A stretch of 21,841 nucleotides of DNA from a virus: the IMG/VR virus record IMGVR_UViG_3300050138_000249, positions 1 to 21,841 of that record; one strand, 5' to 3'. Below, in pieces: positions 4,486 through 18,134 of the stretch; positions within the stretch are counted from its first letter, which is position 1, and each line of letters starts with the position of its first letter. The notes below the pieces were generated by a model. That model ran no database searches. It was given only the letters and a program-made list of their open reading frames with translations, and was not told the DNA's origin. Both the position numbers and the translations under genes were made by a program.

Positions 4486-5547
4486 ATGGCGAAATCAGCA
4501 GTGCTACAGCGCGTGGCTGTCCGGGCCGAGAAGGTGCGCCTGGACTTCAACGAGAACCACGATGAGCGGGGACGCTTCAGCTCCGGCGCGGTCGGCAGCA
4601 GCTCGTCCACCATCATGGCCAGCAACCACGCCACCAAGATGGGGGCAGAGGCACACGCCATGAAAGAAAGCGCCAGGCACAACGGCCTACACACGGTTTA
4701 CGACAACAAGACCAAGGCTTATGTGAGCTCTTTCCGTGGCGGCAAGGTCGTGCCGGTGAACGCCCAGGAGATGAAGGACCGGGCTAGCCACGCCGGCCTC
4801 ATGCAGATGGAACGCGCGGGCCGGACCAAAGATCGCACGGAGTTCCCCACCAATTTGGCGACGGGTCAACGGGCGCAGGGAAAGTACGGCGCGTCGAAGG
4901 CGACACTGGCGAAAGTCCCGCCCGGCACCAATGCCGCCCAGGGCCGCGCGCGCATCGCCGAGGCCGCGAAGCTCAGCCCGGAGACGCTGGCCAAAGAGCC
5001 GTGGCGCGCCAAGGGCATTCCCACGCTGGGGCATGAGGCGGCGAAGAGCGCAGCGACCACCCCGGCGTCGGGCAAGGGTGGCCGCATCAACCCCACGCCC
5101 GACGAGTTCGCTAAGCACGTCCACGAGAGCAACTTCTCCGTGCTCACGGCCGCCAATCCCGCGAGCCAGACCACGGACAGCGCCACGAACTCCCGGCGCA
5201 TGATGCAAATCTACCACGAGCTGAAGGAACGCGGCGCCACCTACATCCCCACCGTGGGCAAGTACGGCAACAAAGAACCGTCCGTGATGGTGATGCACGA
5301 CGCCAATTTCACCAAAGAACACGCCGAGGAGATGGGGGCCAAATATGGCCAGACTTCGGTGATGCACAGTCTCGCGGGCCAGGGTATCATGCACTACACG
5401 ACCGGCCCGCGCGCCGGCAAGGAGTGGAGCAGCCTGGGCAAGCCCAGTTTCGACCCCAGCAAGACAGACTTTTACACCGGCCACCAAGGGAATCGTTTCA
5501 GTTACGACTTCCCCGACGAGGCCTTCCCCAACGAGAAAGGTGAGTGA
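4486..5547 (+). CDS. HDERGRF-motif protein with DUF3293-like C-terminal domain
   Basis: The 353-residue protein has a short basic helix (1-16) and then KVRLDFNENHDERGRFSSG (16-34), a motif repeated in the MuF protein encoded downstream. A Ser/Ala/Lys-rich low-complexity middle (about 35-205) follows. The compact C-terminal domain (about 205-345) has FSVLTAANPAS (217-227), N235, YIPTVGKYGNKEPSVMV (253-269) and GAKYGQTSVMHS (284-295). This order (TA.NP, N, P.vG, E.S, fGQ..v) matches my memory of DUF3293-type domains, whose biochemical role is not established. A strong GGAGGT precedes the ATG, and the gene has its own promoter and operator. It lies between portal and MuF, where accessory or effector genes are often found. 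The reading frame is solid; the domain call is tentative, and the activity (nuclease, toxin or other) is unknown. Confidence 0.6.
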   Translation: MAKSAVLQRVAVRAEKVRLDFNENHDERGRFSSGAVGSSSSTIMASNHATKMGAEAHAMKESARHNGLHTVYDNKTKAYVSSFRGGKVVPVNAQEMKDRASHAGLMQMERAGRTKDRTEFPTNLATGQRAQGKYGASKATLAKVPPGTNAAQGRARIAEAAKLSPETLAKEPWRAKGIPTLGHEAAKSAATTPASGKGGRINPTPDEFAKHVHESNFSVLTAANPASQTTDSATNSRRMMQIYHELKERGATYIPTVGKYGNKEPSVMVMHDANFTKEHAEEMGAKYGQTSVMHSLAGQGIMHYTTGPRAGKEWSSLGKPSFDPSKTDFYTGHQGNRFSYDFPDEAFPNEKGE

Positions 5548-11703: not shown

Positions 11704-12061
11704 GGCCCTGGCGGACTACGCCAAGCAGTACAGCTTCCTGCGCTACACGGTGCCGGTGGGCGCCAAGGGGCAGCAAGTAACGCCCACGGCCACTCCCATG
11801 ACGATGTGGGCTTCGATCCAATCCATGCGCGACTTCGAGCTTCTGGCGCTGCCCGAGCTCTTCCGCAGCCAGGACGGGATCAAGATTTACGCGGACCGCG
11901 CCATGCAGATGGGCGATGACTCCAAGGGGCTTTACGGCGACCGAATCCTTTACCACGGCTACTACTACGAAGTGAAGATGGTGGCGGACTGGCAAGATAA
12001 CGATCTTGTCCATTTCCGCTACAAGGCCTTCAAGATCCAACAAAACAGGAGCGCGGCATGA
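11696..12061 (+). CDS. Head-closure/neck protein, small
   Basis: The 121-residue protein has a beta-rich pattern: FLRYTVPVGAKGQQVTPTAT, then MTMWASIQSMRDFELLALPE, KIYADRAMQMGDDSKGLYGD and YYYEVKMVADWQDNDLVHFR. It has the size and gene position of a head-closure or tail-completion protein between the gp10-like gene and the tail genes. GGGGAG (11683-11688) with seven bases of spacing supports ATG 11696. The exact family was not identified; the role is inferred from synteny in related myophages. Confidence 0.65.
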   Translation: MNEALADYAKQYSFLRYTVPVGAKGQQVTPTATPMTMWASIQSMRDFELLALPELFRSQDGIKIYADRAMQMGDDSKGLYGDRILYHGYYYEVKMVADWQDNDLVHFRYKAFKIQQNRSAA

Positions 12062-13359
12062 GCAGCACAGTGGTCCCGAAGGAATACGACATCACAGTCA
12101 ACCCGACCGCGGCCCTAGCTTTGGCGGCGAATCCCGCGCGCGCCTACCTGCAGATCTTCAACAAGTCCGCGGGGAAGGTGACCTACAAGTTCGGCCCCTT
12201 CATCCCGGCCGCCAGCGCCGTCCAGGTCATCGCCTTCAGCGCCGTCCCCACGGCCGGGACCTGGACCGCCACGATCCTGGGGCAGACCGCCAGCTTCAAC
12301 TACAACGACAACGCCGCCACGATCCAGACCGGGTTGCAGACCCTCACGAACGTGGGCGCCAACAACATCACGGTGAGCGGCGACTATACGGTGGGATTCA
12401 CCGTGACCTTTGCCGGCAACCTGGGCAACATCCAACAGGCCGCCATCGTCGTGAACCCGGCCGGCCTGAGCAACAACCTCGTGCAGTCCAGCGCGGTCCA
12501 GGCCATCAACTTCGACCAGCCGCCCACGGCCGGTAACATCACCCTGGGCTTCAAGGGCCAGAACACGCCCAGCCTGCCCTTCGACGTGTCAGCCGGGGCT
12601 TTGCAGACCGCGCTCAACGCGCTGGATACGATGTCCCCCACGGGCGTTAGCGCCCTGGCCCAGGACGGCACCACCAAGGACTTCTCCGTCACCATGGGCG
12701 GCGCGCCCCTGCTCGACGCCGCGCAGCCGCTCATCCAGGTGGTGGTCAGCACCCTGACCGGGACCGTGGCCCAGGCCACGCAGAGCGTGACGCTGCAGGC
12801 GACCCCCAAGCCTATCGCCGGGACCTTCCAGCTCAGCAACGGCACGGACACCACGCTGCCCATGCAATGGAATGCGGACGCCGGTACGATCCAGAACTTC
12901 TTGGCCGTGCTGCCGTCCATCGGCGTGGGCAACGTGGCTGTGACCGGAAGCTGGGCGGCGGGCTTCACCATCATCTACCAGGGCACTTTGGTGAACAGCA
13001 AGCAGCCGGTGATCTTCCTCACCAACAAGTTGCTCGTGGGCGACACCCTCAACGATGACGACGAGACCACGGGCCTGGATGACATCGACTACGACAGCGT
13101 GAAGTGGGCCGTGGTGGTCAACACCCTGGGGCATGGCGCCGACACCGTGGCCGTGACCGTGGCGACCACGGCGGCCGGCGCGGTGCCGGGCCCTGTGACC
13201 GCCAGCGTGGTGGTGAACGTCGCCGGCACGCCCGGCGAGTCGGGGGTGGACATCCTGGCGGCGGCCGAGCCCGTGCTCATGGACGCGGAAGTGCCCATCG
13301 ACGCCATTTACATGGAGTCCGCGCTTTCGAACAGCGCGGTCGTGATCCTGGAGGGCTAG
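12058..13359 (+). CDS. Neck/decoration protein with three tandem beta-domain repeats
   Basis: The 433-residue protein starts with a small beta domain (1-54; NPARAYLQIFNKSAGKVTYK) of the kind found in phage head-fibre or decoration proteins. Three tandem repeats of about 80 residues follow: 55-134, 147-228 and 244-322. Each has the order V(T/I)-x-F, (P/A)-x-AGT, G-x-T, (Y/F/W)(N/D)-x-(D/S)A-(A/G), a helix with L..L..L, then GxxxxxV and a (F/Y)(T/S)(V/I)-x-(F/Y/M) strand. This type of repeat is common in large surface and phage structural proteins. A final segment (323-433) is acidic (DDDETTGLDDIDYDS) and then Ala/Val-rich. It begins in an ATGA overlap and lies among neck genes, so an external neck or head ornament is likely. 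Function is inferred. Confidence 0.65.
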   Translation: MSSTVVPKEYDITVNPTAALALAANPARAYLQIFNKSAGKVTYKFGPFIPAASAVQVIAFSAVPTAGTWTATILGQTASFNYNDNAATIQTGLQTLTNVGANNITVSGDYTVGFTVTFAGNLGNIQQAAIVVNPAGLSNNLVQSSAVQAINFDQPPTAGNITLGFKGQNTPSLPFDVSAGALQTALNALDTMSPTGVSALAQDGTTKDFSVTMGGAPLLDAAQPLIQVVVSTLTGTVAQATQSVTLQATPKPIAGTFQLSNGTDTTLPMQWNADAGTIQNFLAVLPSIGVGNVAVTGSWAAGFTIIYQGTLVNSKQPVIFLTNKLLVGDTLNDDDETTGLDDIDYDSVKWAVVVNTLGHGADTVAVTVATTAAGAVPGPVTASVVVNVAGTPGESGVDILAAAEPVLMDAEVPIDAIYMESALSNSAVVILEG

Positions 13360-15726: not shown

Positions 15727-15738
15727 AGGAGCTTGCAC

Positions 15739-16185
15739 ATGAGCCAGCTACACCAAGTCGATCCGGGGAAGATGATCTTCTCTGTGGGTACCCTGGGGGT
15801 CCCGGTCACCGGCTACGCCAAGGGGACCTTCCTGGAGTTCTCCCGCGACGTGGACGCCTTCGTCAAGTCCGTGGGATCGGACGGGGAGGTCACGCGCGTG
15901 CGCAACCGCAACCGCGCCGGCTCCGTCAAGGTGACGCTCCAGCAGGGCAGCCAGACCAACGCCGCCTTCTCGGCCCTGGCCATCCTGGACGAGCAGAGCG
16001 GCTTGGGCGTCGTGCCCTGCACCTTCATGGACATGAGCGGCCTGCCGGGCCAGGAGACGGTCGCCGCATCCACCACCGGTTGGATCCGCAAGATGCCCGA
16101 CACCACCATGAGCGGCGAAGGCGAAGAGCACCGGGTCTGGATCTTCGATCTGGCCGTCATGCCCATGTTTGTCGGGGGCAACTAA
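15739..16185 (+). CDS. Tail tube protein (DUF3277 family)
   Basis: The 148-residue protein matches the DUF3277 tail tube family in length and pattern: an opening close to FSVGTLGVPVTGYAKGTFLE, then VTRVRNRNRAGSVKVTLQQG, NAAFSALAILDEQSGLGVVP and WIRKMPDTTMSGEGEEHRVW, ending in DLAVMPMFVGGN. It forms the hexameric rings inside the sheath through which DNA passes. ATG 15739 was chosen over the TTG at 15733 because AAAGGAG ends at 15731, seven bases before it. It follows the sheath gene directly and its TAA overlaps the next ATG. Confidence 0.88.
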   Translation: MSQLHQVDPGKMIFSVGTLGVPVTGYAKGTFLEFSRDVDAFVKSVGSDGEVTRVRNRNRAGSVKVTLQQGSQTNAAFSALAILDEQSGLGVVPCTFMDMSGLPGQETVAASTTGWIRKMPDTTMSGEGEEHRVWIFDLAVMPMFVGGN

Positions 16186-16661
16186 TGGCGCGCGGGATGG
16201 TCACCGCGCAGATCGACGGCGAAACCTACCACATCGGCTACCTGCTCACGTCCGAAGCCGTGAAGCTTGCCCTAGAGGTGGCCAAGCGCGCCGCCCCCAT
16301 CATGGGTTCGGGCGCCAAGGGGGTCCTGACGAACCTGGGCGAGGGCGGTGCTGAAAATCTGATGGCGTCCAACGTGAACGACTTCATCAAGAAGCTGGAC
16401 TTGGAAGGCCTGGGCGTGATGGTGGCTGCGGCCATTGAGCCGGCCGAGTTGGAGGCCATCATCCAAAAGCTATGCAGCGTGGCCGTCCCCCATGGCGAGG
16501 GAAACACGACCTATGACGCCTGGTATCAGGGCCGGCCAGGCCACGCGCTCAAAGTGGCGGTCAAGAGCTTCGAGGTGAACTGCAGCGATTTTTTCGCCAG
16601 CGCCGTAAGCCTCGGTGGACTCCTGAAGAAAAAAATTACAACCCCGGCAAAAACTCCGTAA
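16185..16661 (+). CDS. Tail assembly chaperone, zero-frame product
   Basis: This 158-residue protein lies between tube and tape measure, the invariable place of tail assembly chaperones (lambda gpG, P2 gpE). It begins MARGMVTAQIDGETYHIGYL, has a helical middle (SEAVKLALEVAKRAAPIMGS; EPAELEAIIQKLCSVAVPHG) and contains FEVNCSDFFASAVSLGGLLK near the end, which recalls the related family segment where these genes shift frame. It starts in a one-base overlap with the tube stop. Chaperones coat the tape measure while the tube polymerises and are absent from virions. A -1 frame continues openly past its stop (see 16589-16813). Confidence 0.82.
   Translation: MARGMVTAQIDGETYHIGYLLTSEAVKLALEVAKRAAPIMGSGAKGVLTNLGEGGAENLMASNVNDFIKKLDLEGLGVMVAAAIEPAELEAIIQKLCSVAVPHGEGNTTYDAWYQGRPGHALKVAVKSFEVNCSDFFASAVSLGGLLKKKITTPAKTP
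16589..16595 (+). other. Probable -1 ribosomal frameshift site T TTT TTC
   Basis: In the zero frame the codons are GAT TTT TTC, so the heptamer has the canonical X XXY YYZ form and both tRNAs can re-pair after slipping back one base. The -1 frame is open from here to TAG 16811-16813. A run of seven A at 16629-16635 is a second, less regular candidate in the same overlap. Confidence 0.7.
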
Positions 16662-16813
16662 ATTGGTTTATTTGGCGTTTGGTCCGAGCCAATCTGGCCA
16701 CCAAAACGGAGGTTGAGGAGCATTGGACTATTGCCGATGTCTGGGAGGCTCATGAGCTGCTCGACATAGAGAGGGAGAGCCAGGAGTGGCACGAGAAGCA
16801 CCCCAAGAAGTAG
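16595..16813 (+). CDS. Tail assembly chaperone, -1 frame extension
   Basis: The -1 frame adds 72 residues to the first 137 of the chaperone, giving a 209-residue fusion comparable to lambda gpG-T. The added part includes YNPGKNSVNWFIWRLVRANL, then EEHWTIADVWEAHELLDIER and ends WHEKHPKK. Trp/Glu/His-rich helices of this kind (WT..DV.EAHE.LD) are usual in the T-like halves that bind the tape measure. No ribosome site or plausible independent start is visible, so frameshifting is the best explanation. It ends eleven bases before the tape measure start. It has not been shown which slippery site is used. Confidence 0.75.
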   Translation, partial: RQRRKPRWTPEEKNYNPGKNSVNWFIWRLVRANLATKTEVEEHWTIADVWEAHELLDIERESQEWHEKHPKK

Positions 16814-16823
16814 GAGATTTCAC

Positions 16824-18134
16824 TTGACGGTCAGGGAGCTCGTTACAACCTGGGGTTTCGACATCGACACAAAACCCCTCCAAGAACTTGAACACCATAT
16901 TTCTGGTGTTAGGGATACCATACGCCATTTAGGCGAGTTGATTTTAGGTGAGGGCGCGTCCCTCTTTGGGCTCGCTGAAACGACAACCAACGCCGCCGTA
17001 GAATTCAAAAAGACAGCCGAGGGTGTAGGCACTACGGCCACCCGCATCCAAGAGTTGGTGTGGGCCGGCAAGAAGTGGGACATCCAAGCCAGCTCCATAA
17101 CTATGAGCCTACGTCGTCTTTCCACTGGGGCGGTGGAAGCCAGCCGCGGGTCCGCGCAGGCCGCCCGCACGCTCATGGAGGCGGGCGTCCATGACATGTA
17201 CAACGACAAGGGGGGGCTGCTCCGGTCAGACCAATTGCTCCTCCAGGTCGCCCAAAAGTTCCGCACGATGGGGTCCGACGCACTGAAGGCTGGCCTTGCT
17301 CAGCAAGTCTTTGGGCGCAGCAGCTCCGAGATTATCACGCTGCTGAATCGTCTTGGCACAGAGGGGTTTGAGAAGGCGGCGGCCGAGGCCCACAAGTTTG
17401 GCGGCGTCATGGACGAAGAAGCCATCAAAAAGAGCGAAGCCTTCAAGGAGTCGATCAACACCCTTCGGGCCATGATCACGGGCCTTCGTAACACCATCGG
17501 GTTGGCACTGATGCCGGCCATTGAAGCTATGGTGGACGATGTGAAGGCTTGGTACATCGCCAATGAGTCCATGATAAGGTCGGACATCGTGCAATTCGCC
17601 AAAGAGCTGAGCGCCGCGGTGGAGGGTATCGCCAAATTCATGGTCCACACCGTGGACGTGGCCCTGCGTCTGACCAGCGCCTTCGGGGGATTGGGTGAGG
17701 TTATGAAGATCATCACGGCCGGCTTCACCGCCTGGGCGGCGTTGGGCGTGGTGTCATCGCTAACGGAGATCATAAAGATTGTCATCTTGGCGGCCAAGGC
17801 TATGTGGGCCCTGGCCACGGGCGAAGCCGCGGTGTCGGGAGGCCTCAGCGCCATTGCGCAGATCGCGGCGGCGGCGGCGGTGGGCGGCACCGCGCTATAT
17901 ATGATGCGCGACCAAGGCGTTTTGTCCGCGCCTGCCCAGGACATCAATGGCGGGTTCTCCCACTCGTCGATGACCAACAACAGCAAGACCGTGAATCTCA
18001 GCCTTACCAGCGAAATACACCTGGGCTCCGGAACGTCCCAGCAGCAGGCGGCTGAAATAGCGGCGGCCCACCACAAGCTGATAGAGAGCGGCCTTCGGAC
18101 CGCGACGGCCGGCGTTACAGGTGGGGGTCACTGA
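16824..18134 (+). CDS. Tape measure protein
   Basis: The 436-residue protein sets tail length and is ejected ahead of DNA. It starts at TTG 16824 with AGGAG at 16812-16816. The N-terminus (MTVRELVTTWGFDIDTKPLQ) is the usual tape-measure opening, followed by helices (TRIQELVWAGKKWDIQASSI; FGRSSSEIITLLNRLGTEGF; NTLRAMITGLRNTIGLALMP). Hydrophobic stretches around 285-360 (ITAGFTAWAALGVVSSLTEI; AAAAAVGGTALYMM) may enter the host membrane. The C-terminus is polar, with many Asn/Ser/Thr. At about 1.5 angstrom per residue, the family rule, the tail would be about 65 nm. Codon use is less G/C-biased than in the sheath and capsid genes, with frequent ATA. Confidence 0.88.
   Translation: MTVRELVTTWGFDIDTKPLQELEHHISGVRDTIRHLGELILGEGASLFGLAETTTNAAVEFKKTAEGVGTTATRIQELVWAGKKWDIQASSITMSLRRLSTGAVEASRGSAQAARTLMEAGVHDMYNDKGGLLRSDQLLLQVAQKFRTMGSDALKAGLAQQVFGRSSSEIITLLNRLGTEGFEKAAAEAHKFGGVMDEEAIKKSEAFKESINTLRAMITGLRNTIGLALMPAIEAMVDDVKAWYIANESMIRSDIVQFAKELSAAVEGIAKFMVHTVDVALRLTSAFGGLGEVMKIITAGFTAWAALGVVSSLTEIIKIVILAAKAMWALATGEAAVSGGLSAIAQIAAAAAVGGTALYMMRDQGVLSAPAQDINGGFSHSSMTNNSKTVNLSLTSEIHLGSGTSQQQAAEIAAAHHKLIESGLRTATAGVTGGGH

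Follow-up and report, generated by a model that had tools for sequence, protein, structure and literature searches.

The window, by which we mean the whole 21,841-base stretch of a virus record analysed here, encodes the morphogenesis cluster of a contractile-tailed phage, with profile matches to portal (PF06381), major capsid (PF09950), tail terminator, sheath (DUF3383), tube (PF11681), chaperone, tape measure, Dit-like and baseplate genes. The tail assembly chaperone (TAC) gene (16185-16661) lies where a TAC is expected, between the tail tube gene on its 5' side (15733-16185; PF11681 KPP10_Orf10, E 1.1e-5; phrog_280) and the tape measure gene on its 3' side (16824-18134; TIGR01760; phrog_8462, E 2.9e-27). 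These three genes, and all the signals discussed below, are on the + strand. The tape measure start at 16824 seems to be a TTG; the IMG/VR relative L002 has an ATG at the equivalent residue. Elsewhere in the window, a gene of 353 residues (4486-5547), flanked by the portal on one side and a Mu-F-like head protein on the other, carries a DUF3293 domain (E 2.8e-11) and matches no PHROG, and a gene of 433 residues (12058-13359) that precedes the tail terminator gives weak partial matches to the sheath and major tail protein families.

Overlapping frames at the chaperone gene

The zero frame of the chaperone gene runs from an ATG at 16185 to a TAA at 16659-16661 and encodes 158 residues. In the Pfam scan this product scored 42.6 bits against PF21822 Phage_TAC_15 (cut-off 22; E 1.1e-10), which places it in that family, and it also matches phrog_1613 (E 1.3e-7); PF21822 is likewise matched by all 11 aligned family members. 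With E values up to 1 allowed, the scan returned PF21822 as the only match of the chaperone and left the -1 segment described below without one, and the P2 GpE model gave no match. The best solved-structure match of the predicted chaperone model (window 16185-16658) is 5ir0 (Z 8.5, 95 residues aligned), the ORF19 protein from a PICI-like element of Vibrio cholerae, which might be chaperone-like; helical folds match easily, and the fold search, with 5ir0 as its only notable match, was uninformative on function.

Near the 3' end of this frame, 63 nt before the zero-frame stop, is the heptamer T_TTT_TTC (16589-16595), in a phase that fits tandem -1 slippage: the zero frame reads GAT TTT TTC GCC and the -1 frame TTT TTT CGC CAG. 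The -1 frame is open over 16517-16813, from just after a TGA at 16514-16516 to a terminal TAG at 16811-16813. The window thus has an X_XXY_YYZ heptamer near the 3' end of the gene and a -1 frame open past the zero-frame stop, the arrangement of G/GT-type frameshifting, which is described as widespread in tailed phages (PMC5009743). Taken alone, the heptamer of the window is not significant (P 0.083 by synonymous codon choice). A shift at this site would give, by arithmetic from the coordinates, 137 + 72 = 209 residues with the junction ...SDFF-RQRR...; the peptide SFEVNCSDFFR is predicted to be specific for the fusion junction, and SFEVNCSDFFASAVSLGGLLK for the short form.

The -1-frame extension (16595-16813; 72 codons plus TAG, DFF-RQRRKPRW...HPKK) appears to consist of a basic linker followed by a three-helix domain, as indicated by the open frame, its match to phrog_4364 and its predicted structure. 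AlphaFold2 modelled a 74-residue segment counted from 16589 with a mean pLDDT of 88 and helices at residues 26-33, 39-45 and 48-70, the basic linker being of lower confidence and the three helices having a block pLDDT near 97. Among solved structures, none matched the -1 segment by sequence and nothing convincing matched by fold. The phrog_4364 profile is matched by the window (E 0.0039) and by all 11 aligned members (best 3.8e-18), whereas DUF6889 (PF21829) is matched by 3 of the 11 (best 7.8e-9) and not by the window segment. No ATG or GTG occurs in the -1 frame of the window; its sole TTG, at 16679, lacks a Shine-Dalgarno (SD) sequence and falls inside a conserved NWFIWR segment. An earlier sequence-only reading of this DNA had ended the zero frame at 16661, found the -1 frame open from the heptamer to 16813, and described a family-like, Trp/Glu-rich segment with no ribosome site of its own; each of these points agrees with what is reported here.

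Conservation of the slip site and of the -1 segment

As a direct query, the window chaperone found no relative in phages or viral_contigs. The -1 segment was the more productive query, and the corresponding segment of Pam3 (L003) then opened the family and brought in phages of Rhizobium, Aminobacter, Shewanella and Aeromonas; scanning viral_contigs with an 11-member alignment added 75 further IMG/VR loci. The total of 100 loci is made up of the window with 12 other first loci, these 75, two genome loci (Desulfosarcina widdelii and a Zixiibacteriota MAG) and 10 further named phages (seven Chaseviridae, two Rosemountvirus and pOW20-A). The loci were collected by their -1 segment and not by their heptamer; because relatives were sought with the -1 segment only, the heptamer was not selected for. 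Matches to Microbacterium primases in the search with the Pam3 segment, and to retrons in a later search, were dismissed as chance.

A T_TTT_TTN heptamer occupies the same place, with the same phase, in 81 of the 100 loci, a count that probably includes one prophage twice, because L091 and L015 have the same -1 segment. It is present in phase in all 13 first loci, the window among them, in 57 of the 75 IMG/VR loci, in both genome loci (as T_TTT_TTC) and in nine of the 10 further named phages. Some loci that lack T6 carry another canonical heptamer at the identical place: A_AAT_TTT in three IMG/VR loci and G_GGA_AAG in two, the distant relatives L059 and L063. The latter heptamer is that of lambda itself. 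Among the first 88 loci, 13 (all from IMG/VR) are without a canonical heptamer: nine have GTT TTT C, three have no recognisable site and one is cut off at the contig start.

The nine GTT TTT C loci (L057, L064-L070 and L085), eight of them near-identical, have GTT TTT CAA at the end of the zero frame and a conserved -1 segment, and the motif resembles the GTTTTT of the Adele paper discussed below. The exception among the named phages, pOW20-A (L098), has a non-canonical GGT TTT ATA near 901, again with a conserved -1 segment. L061, L073 and L074 keep a conserved -1 extension in an open frame with no recognisable slip site (L074:1985-2010, AAC TTC GGC CCT TCC).

For the substitution, codon, SD and RNA-structure statistics we excluded the 13 loci without a canonical heptamer and the 12 later loci (two genome loci and 10 named phages), and near-duplicates among the remaining 75 were thinned to 66. 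T6 is present in 61 thinned loci, among which synonymous choice would give 13.5; of 333 other F[FL] pairs taken from long open reading frames of the same loci, just 17 have it. We define the permitted interval for the shift as running from the last upstream -1 stop to the zero-frame stop; at its smallest among 75 loci it spans 40 nt. Of the 75 loci, 23 have their -1-frame stop no more than 9 nt from the heptamer; in 12 the two adjoin, so that there the shift cannot lie upstream. Another in-phase X_XXY_YYZ occurs inside the permitted interval in 27 of 75 loci, the window and Pam3 not being among them. Over the aligned sheath-to-tape-measure region, in which the window and L002 are 59.7% identical, the longest identical DNA run is 34 nt, starting at 16585 and covering the slip site. 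The sequence-only reading had proposed a programmed -1 frameshift at T TTT TTC in the tail chaperone, to be checked by alignment with homologues; the comparison strongly supports this, the slip site being conserved in relatives as in G/GT-type programmed -1 frameshifts.

The same reading had drawn attention to a second run, the A7 at 16629-16635, 34 bases downstream of the heptamer, as making this a useful case. A shift at, or aided by, this run is extremely unlikely. It does fall within the permitted interval, but it is out of slippery phase, because it is read AAG AAA AAA ATT and not as X_XXY_YYZ in the zero frame; six or more A between the heptamer and the zero-frame stop occur in only 4 of 75 loci and not in L002, and the 34-nt identity with L002 stops short of the run. 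On grounds of conservation and phase we judge the A7 to lie outside the signal, and the emphasis placed on it does not stand.

The conservation of the -1 segment supports its being a coding sequence. It is 53% identical between the window and L002, six of its positions are invariant among 11 diverse members, and FFR.R is conserved in the -1 frame directly after the heptamer. In eight close pairs, which are not all independent, substitutions past the zero-frame stop fall at -1 codon positions 1, 2 and 3 in the numbers 51, 34 and 160 (160 of 245 at the third position). Such a segment could in principle be a small gene in its own right, translated from a start of its own, and this is how 7 of 21 named phage records annotate it, as a hypothetical gene (L093:841-1062, L096:1018-1176, L097:964-1077, L101:1081-1194, L005:1642-1755, L012:1567-1659 and L013:1615-1764); the remaining named records, Pam3 among them, give the -1 part no gene of its own, and in the stretch displayed none of the 21 has a joined chaperone gene. 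We consider a separate gene very unlikely nonetheless, given the single SD-less TTG of the window within a conserved motif, the conservation of FFR.R in the -1 frame right after the heptamer, and the lack of any ATG, GTG or TTG from the slip site to the conserved motif in 42 of 66 loci; only six have a start codon preceded by 4 nt or more of SD match.

Two other accounts bear on the same alignment. RNA polymerase might slip on the T run to give mixed mRNAs, and most loci do have a homopolymer run at the site. A run of six T is short for polymerase slippage, however, and of the 70 T-run loci 62 have exactly six T, seven have seven and one has eight; moreover, A_AAT_TTT and G_GGA_AAG substitute at the same place, a replacement that agrees with tandem slippage of tRNAs but not with slippage of the polymerase. 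We regard transcriptional slippage as highly improbable. That a sequencing error or pseudogene has broken one gene into two frames would account for two overlapping frames that encode parts belonging together, but about 100 loci, drawn from many phages, share this frame relation, with an in-frame fusion in none of those examined, and the chance of such an artefact is negligible.

A Shine-Dalgarno-like sequence upstream of the heptamer

SD sequences are known to stimulate frameshifting in dnaX and serve as a feature in frameshift prediction, according to the portions available of two papers (PMC10885494; PMC3711429). The window has an SD-like GAGGTGA (16572-16578), 12 nt upstream of the heptamer counted from the end of GGAGGT, which we propose as a stimulator on the basis of its sequence and of a family-wide excess. 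In the 66 thinned loci, the longest upstream stretch that agrees with the SD string has a mean length of 4.91 nt, against 3.86 after synonymous redraw (sd 0.14, maximum 4.29 of 500), and matches of at least 6 nt occur in 30 loci where 9.8 are expected (no more than 18 in any of 500 draws). In eight control windows taken farther 5' in these genes, the SD matches showed no clear excess. In 37 loci with an SD match of at least 5 nt, the distance from the end of GGAGGT to the heptamer is 12 nt in 24 and 9 nt in 10. At the site, 30 of 31 loci encode the Glu of the Glu-Val pair by GAG, whereas over the rest of these genes GAG makes up 168 of 313 Glu codons; this excess keeps its direction when the set is thinned to 59, 43 and 30 loci (p 3e-6, 0.006 and 0.007). 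Because the SD-like element lies upstream of the slip, double coding cannot explain either excess.

At the level of the family, then, an SD-like sequence at a set distance appears to be kept beyond the constraint of the protein, as in a dnaX-type signal, and suggests that the upstream GGAGGT stimulates the slip in the dnaX manner. The element is not significant in the window alone, where 34% of synonymous draws score as high, and it is missing from most of the Chaseviridae members examined. Downstream of the heptamer, the window shows no structure (z +0.1 to +2.0) and hence no dnaX-type stem-loop. Across the family, downstream structure is at best weak, with a mean of -0.76 against a control of -0.31 at 50 nt and little difference at 80 or 100 nt.

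Proposed mechanism and comparison with known systems

The best explanation of these observations is very probably that one gene specifies two proteins through a -1 frameshift at T_TTT_TTC; comparative sequence evidence supports the shift, its direction and its place. Most ribosomes would terminate at 16661 and release the 158-residue chaperone. A minority would slip back one base at U_UUU_UUC, with both Phe tRNAs re-pairing, and make the 209-residue fusion, in which 137 zero-frame residues ending in ...SDFF are followed by 72 -1-frame residues from RQRR onward, with the three-helix domain last. By analogy with the lambda G/GT model, the tape measure protein may be coated by the short form, and the extra domain may allow the long form to recruit tail-tube subunits. 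Pairing of the SD-like GGAGGT with 16S rRNA would aid the slip, as in dnaX, in many relatives and possibly in the window; on present evidence a downstream structure would not be needed.

We infer a real and conserved programmed -1 frameshift that is ordinary in kind. What appears to be new is an SD-like element kept in many lineages, together with exchange of the heptamer at a fixed place. A broader reading, to which we give an even chance, is that in a large share of this chaperone family a conserved internal SD about 12 (or 9) nt upstream sets the frameshift rate with no downstream structure, the heptamer being replaceable (T_TTT_TTN, A_AAT_TTT, G_GGA_AAG, GTT_TTT_C) while its position is fixed, as are the -1 domain and, for many lineages, the SD-like element. 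If so, pairing with rRNA would tune the ratio of the two chaperone forms, and the element could offer a simple, testable account of that ratio that does not involve RNA structure. The frameshift corrects the annotation of a broad set of contractile-tailed phages. We found no publication that reports a fusion protein from this phage, and recognised no account of this frameshift in Chaseviridae, Kleczkowskavirus or Pam3 in a literature coverage that is partial and leaves most subscription journals outside.

The nearest published case is a December 2025 paper that, in its available text, proposes -1 frameshifting at GTTTTT in the chaperones of Vandenendeviridae and Andersonviridae, including Pseudomonas phage Adele, from a slip-site analysis of 56 alleles from 159 Vandenendeviridae genomes and 231 Andersonviridae phages (PMC12846349). 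The present family resembles the Adele-type TAC in having a -1 shift near the 3' end of the chaperone gene, the tape measure gene next to it, a T-rich site and a conserved -1 extension, and the tail-tube tree of that paper is rooted on RHEph04 and Erebus, both of which are among the relatives found here (PMC12846349). Unlike the Adele type, the site here is dominated by T_TTT_TTN; an SD element is not mentioned in the part of the paper available (PMC12846349), and the present set spans Pam3, Kleczkowskavirus, Erebus, Chaseviridae, Rosemountvirus and IMG/VR contigs.

In P2 and its relatives, the accessible account describes a -1 shift at TTTTTTG that yields E and E+E', with no downstream hairpin found (PMC3091744). 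The window shares with P2 a T6 heptamer, the -1 direction, a gene between the major tail protein and the tape measure, and the lack of a hairpin (PMC3091744), and differs from it in a heptamer that ends in C and in having no match to GpE. The Phe-Phe site, which the sequence-only reading had singled out, is thus not unusual, TTTTTTG being the site of P2 and P2-like phages (PMC3091744). As with lambda G and GT in the available description, there would be a short and a frameshift-extended chaperone with a presumed division of labour (PMC5009743); the window heptamer differs from that of lambda, and no sequence relation between the two is shown. A reporter study measured frameshifting of 6 and 7% for two genes whose cluster resembles an HK97 protein (PMC3711429). 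With Escherichia coli dnaX the window shares an SD-like sequence 5' of a slippery heptamer (PMC3711429; PMC10885494). In dnaX, as described in the same papers, a hairpin follows downstream, the heptamer is another one and the function differs, and it is by likeness to dnaX that the SD-like sequence here would be expected to act on the slip (PMC3711429; PMC10885494).
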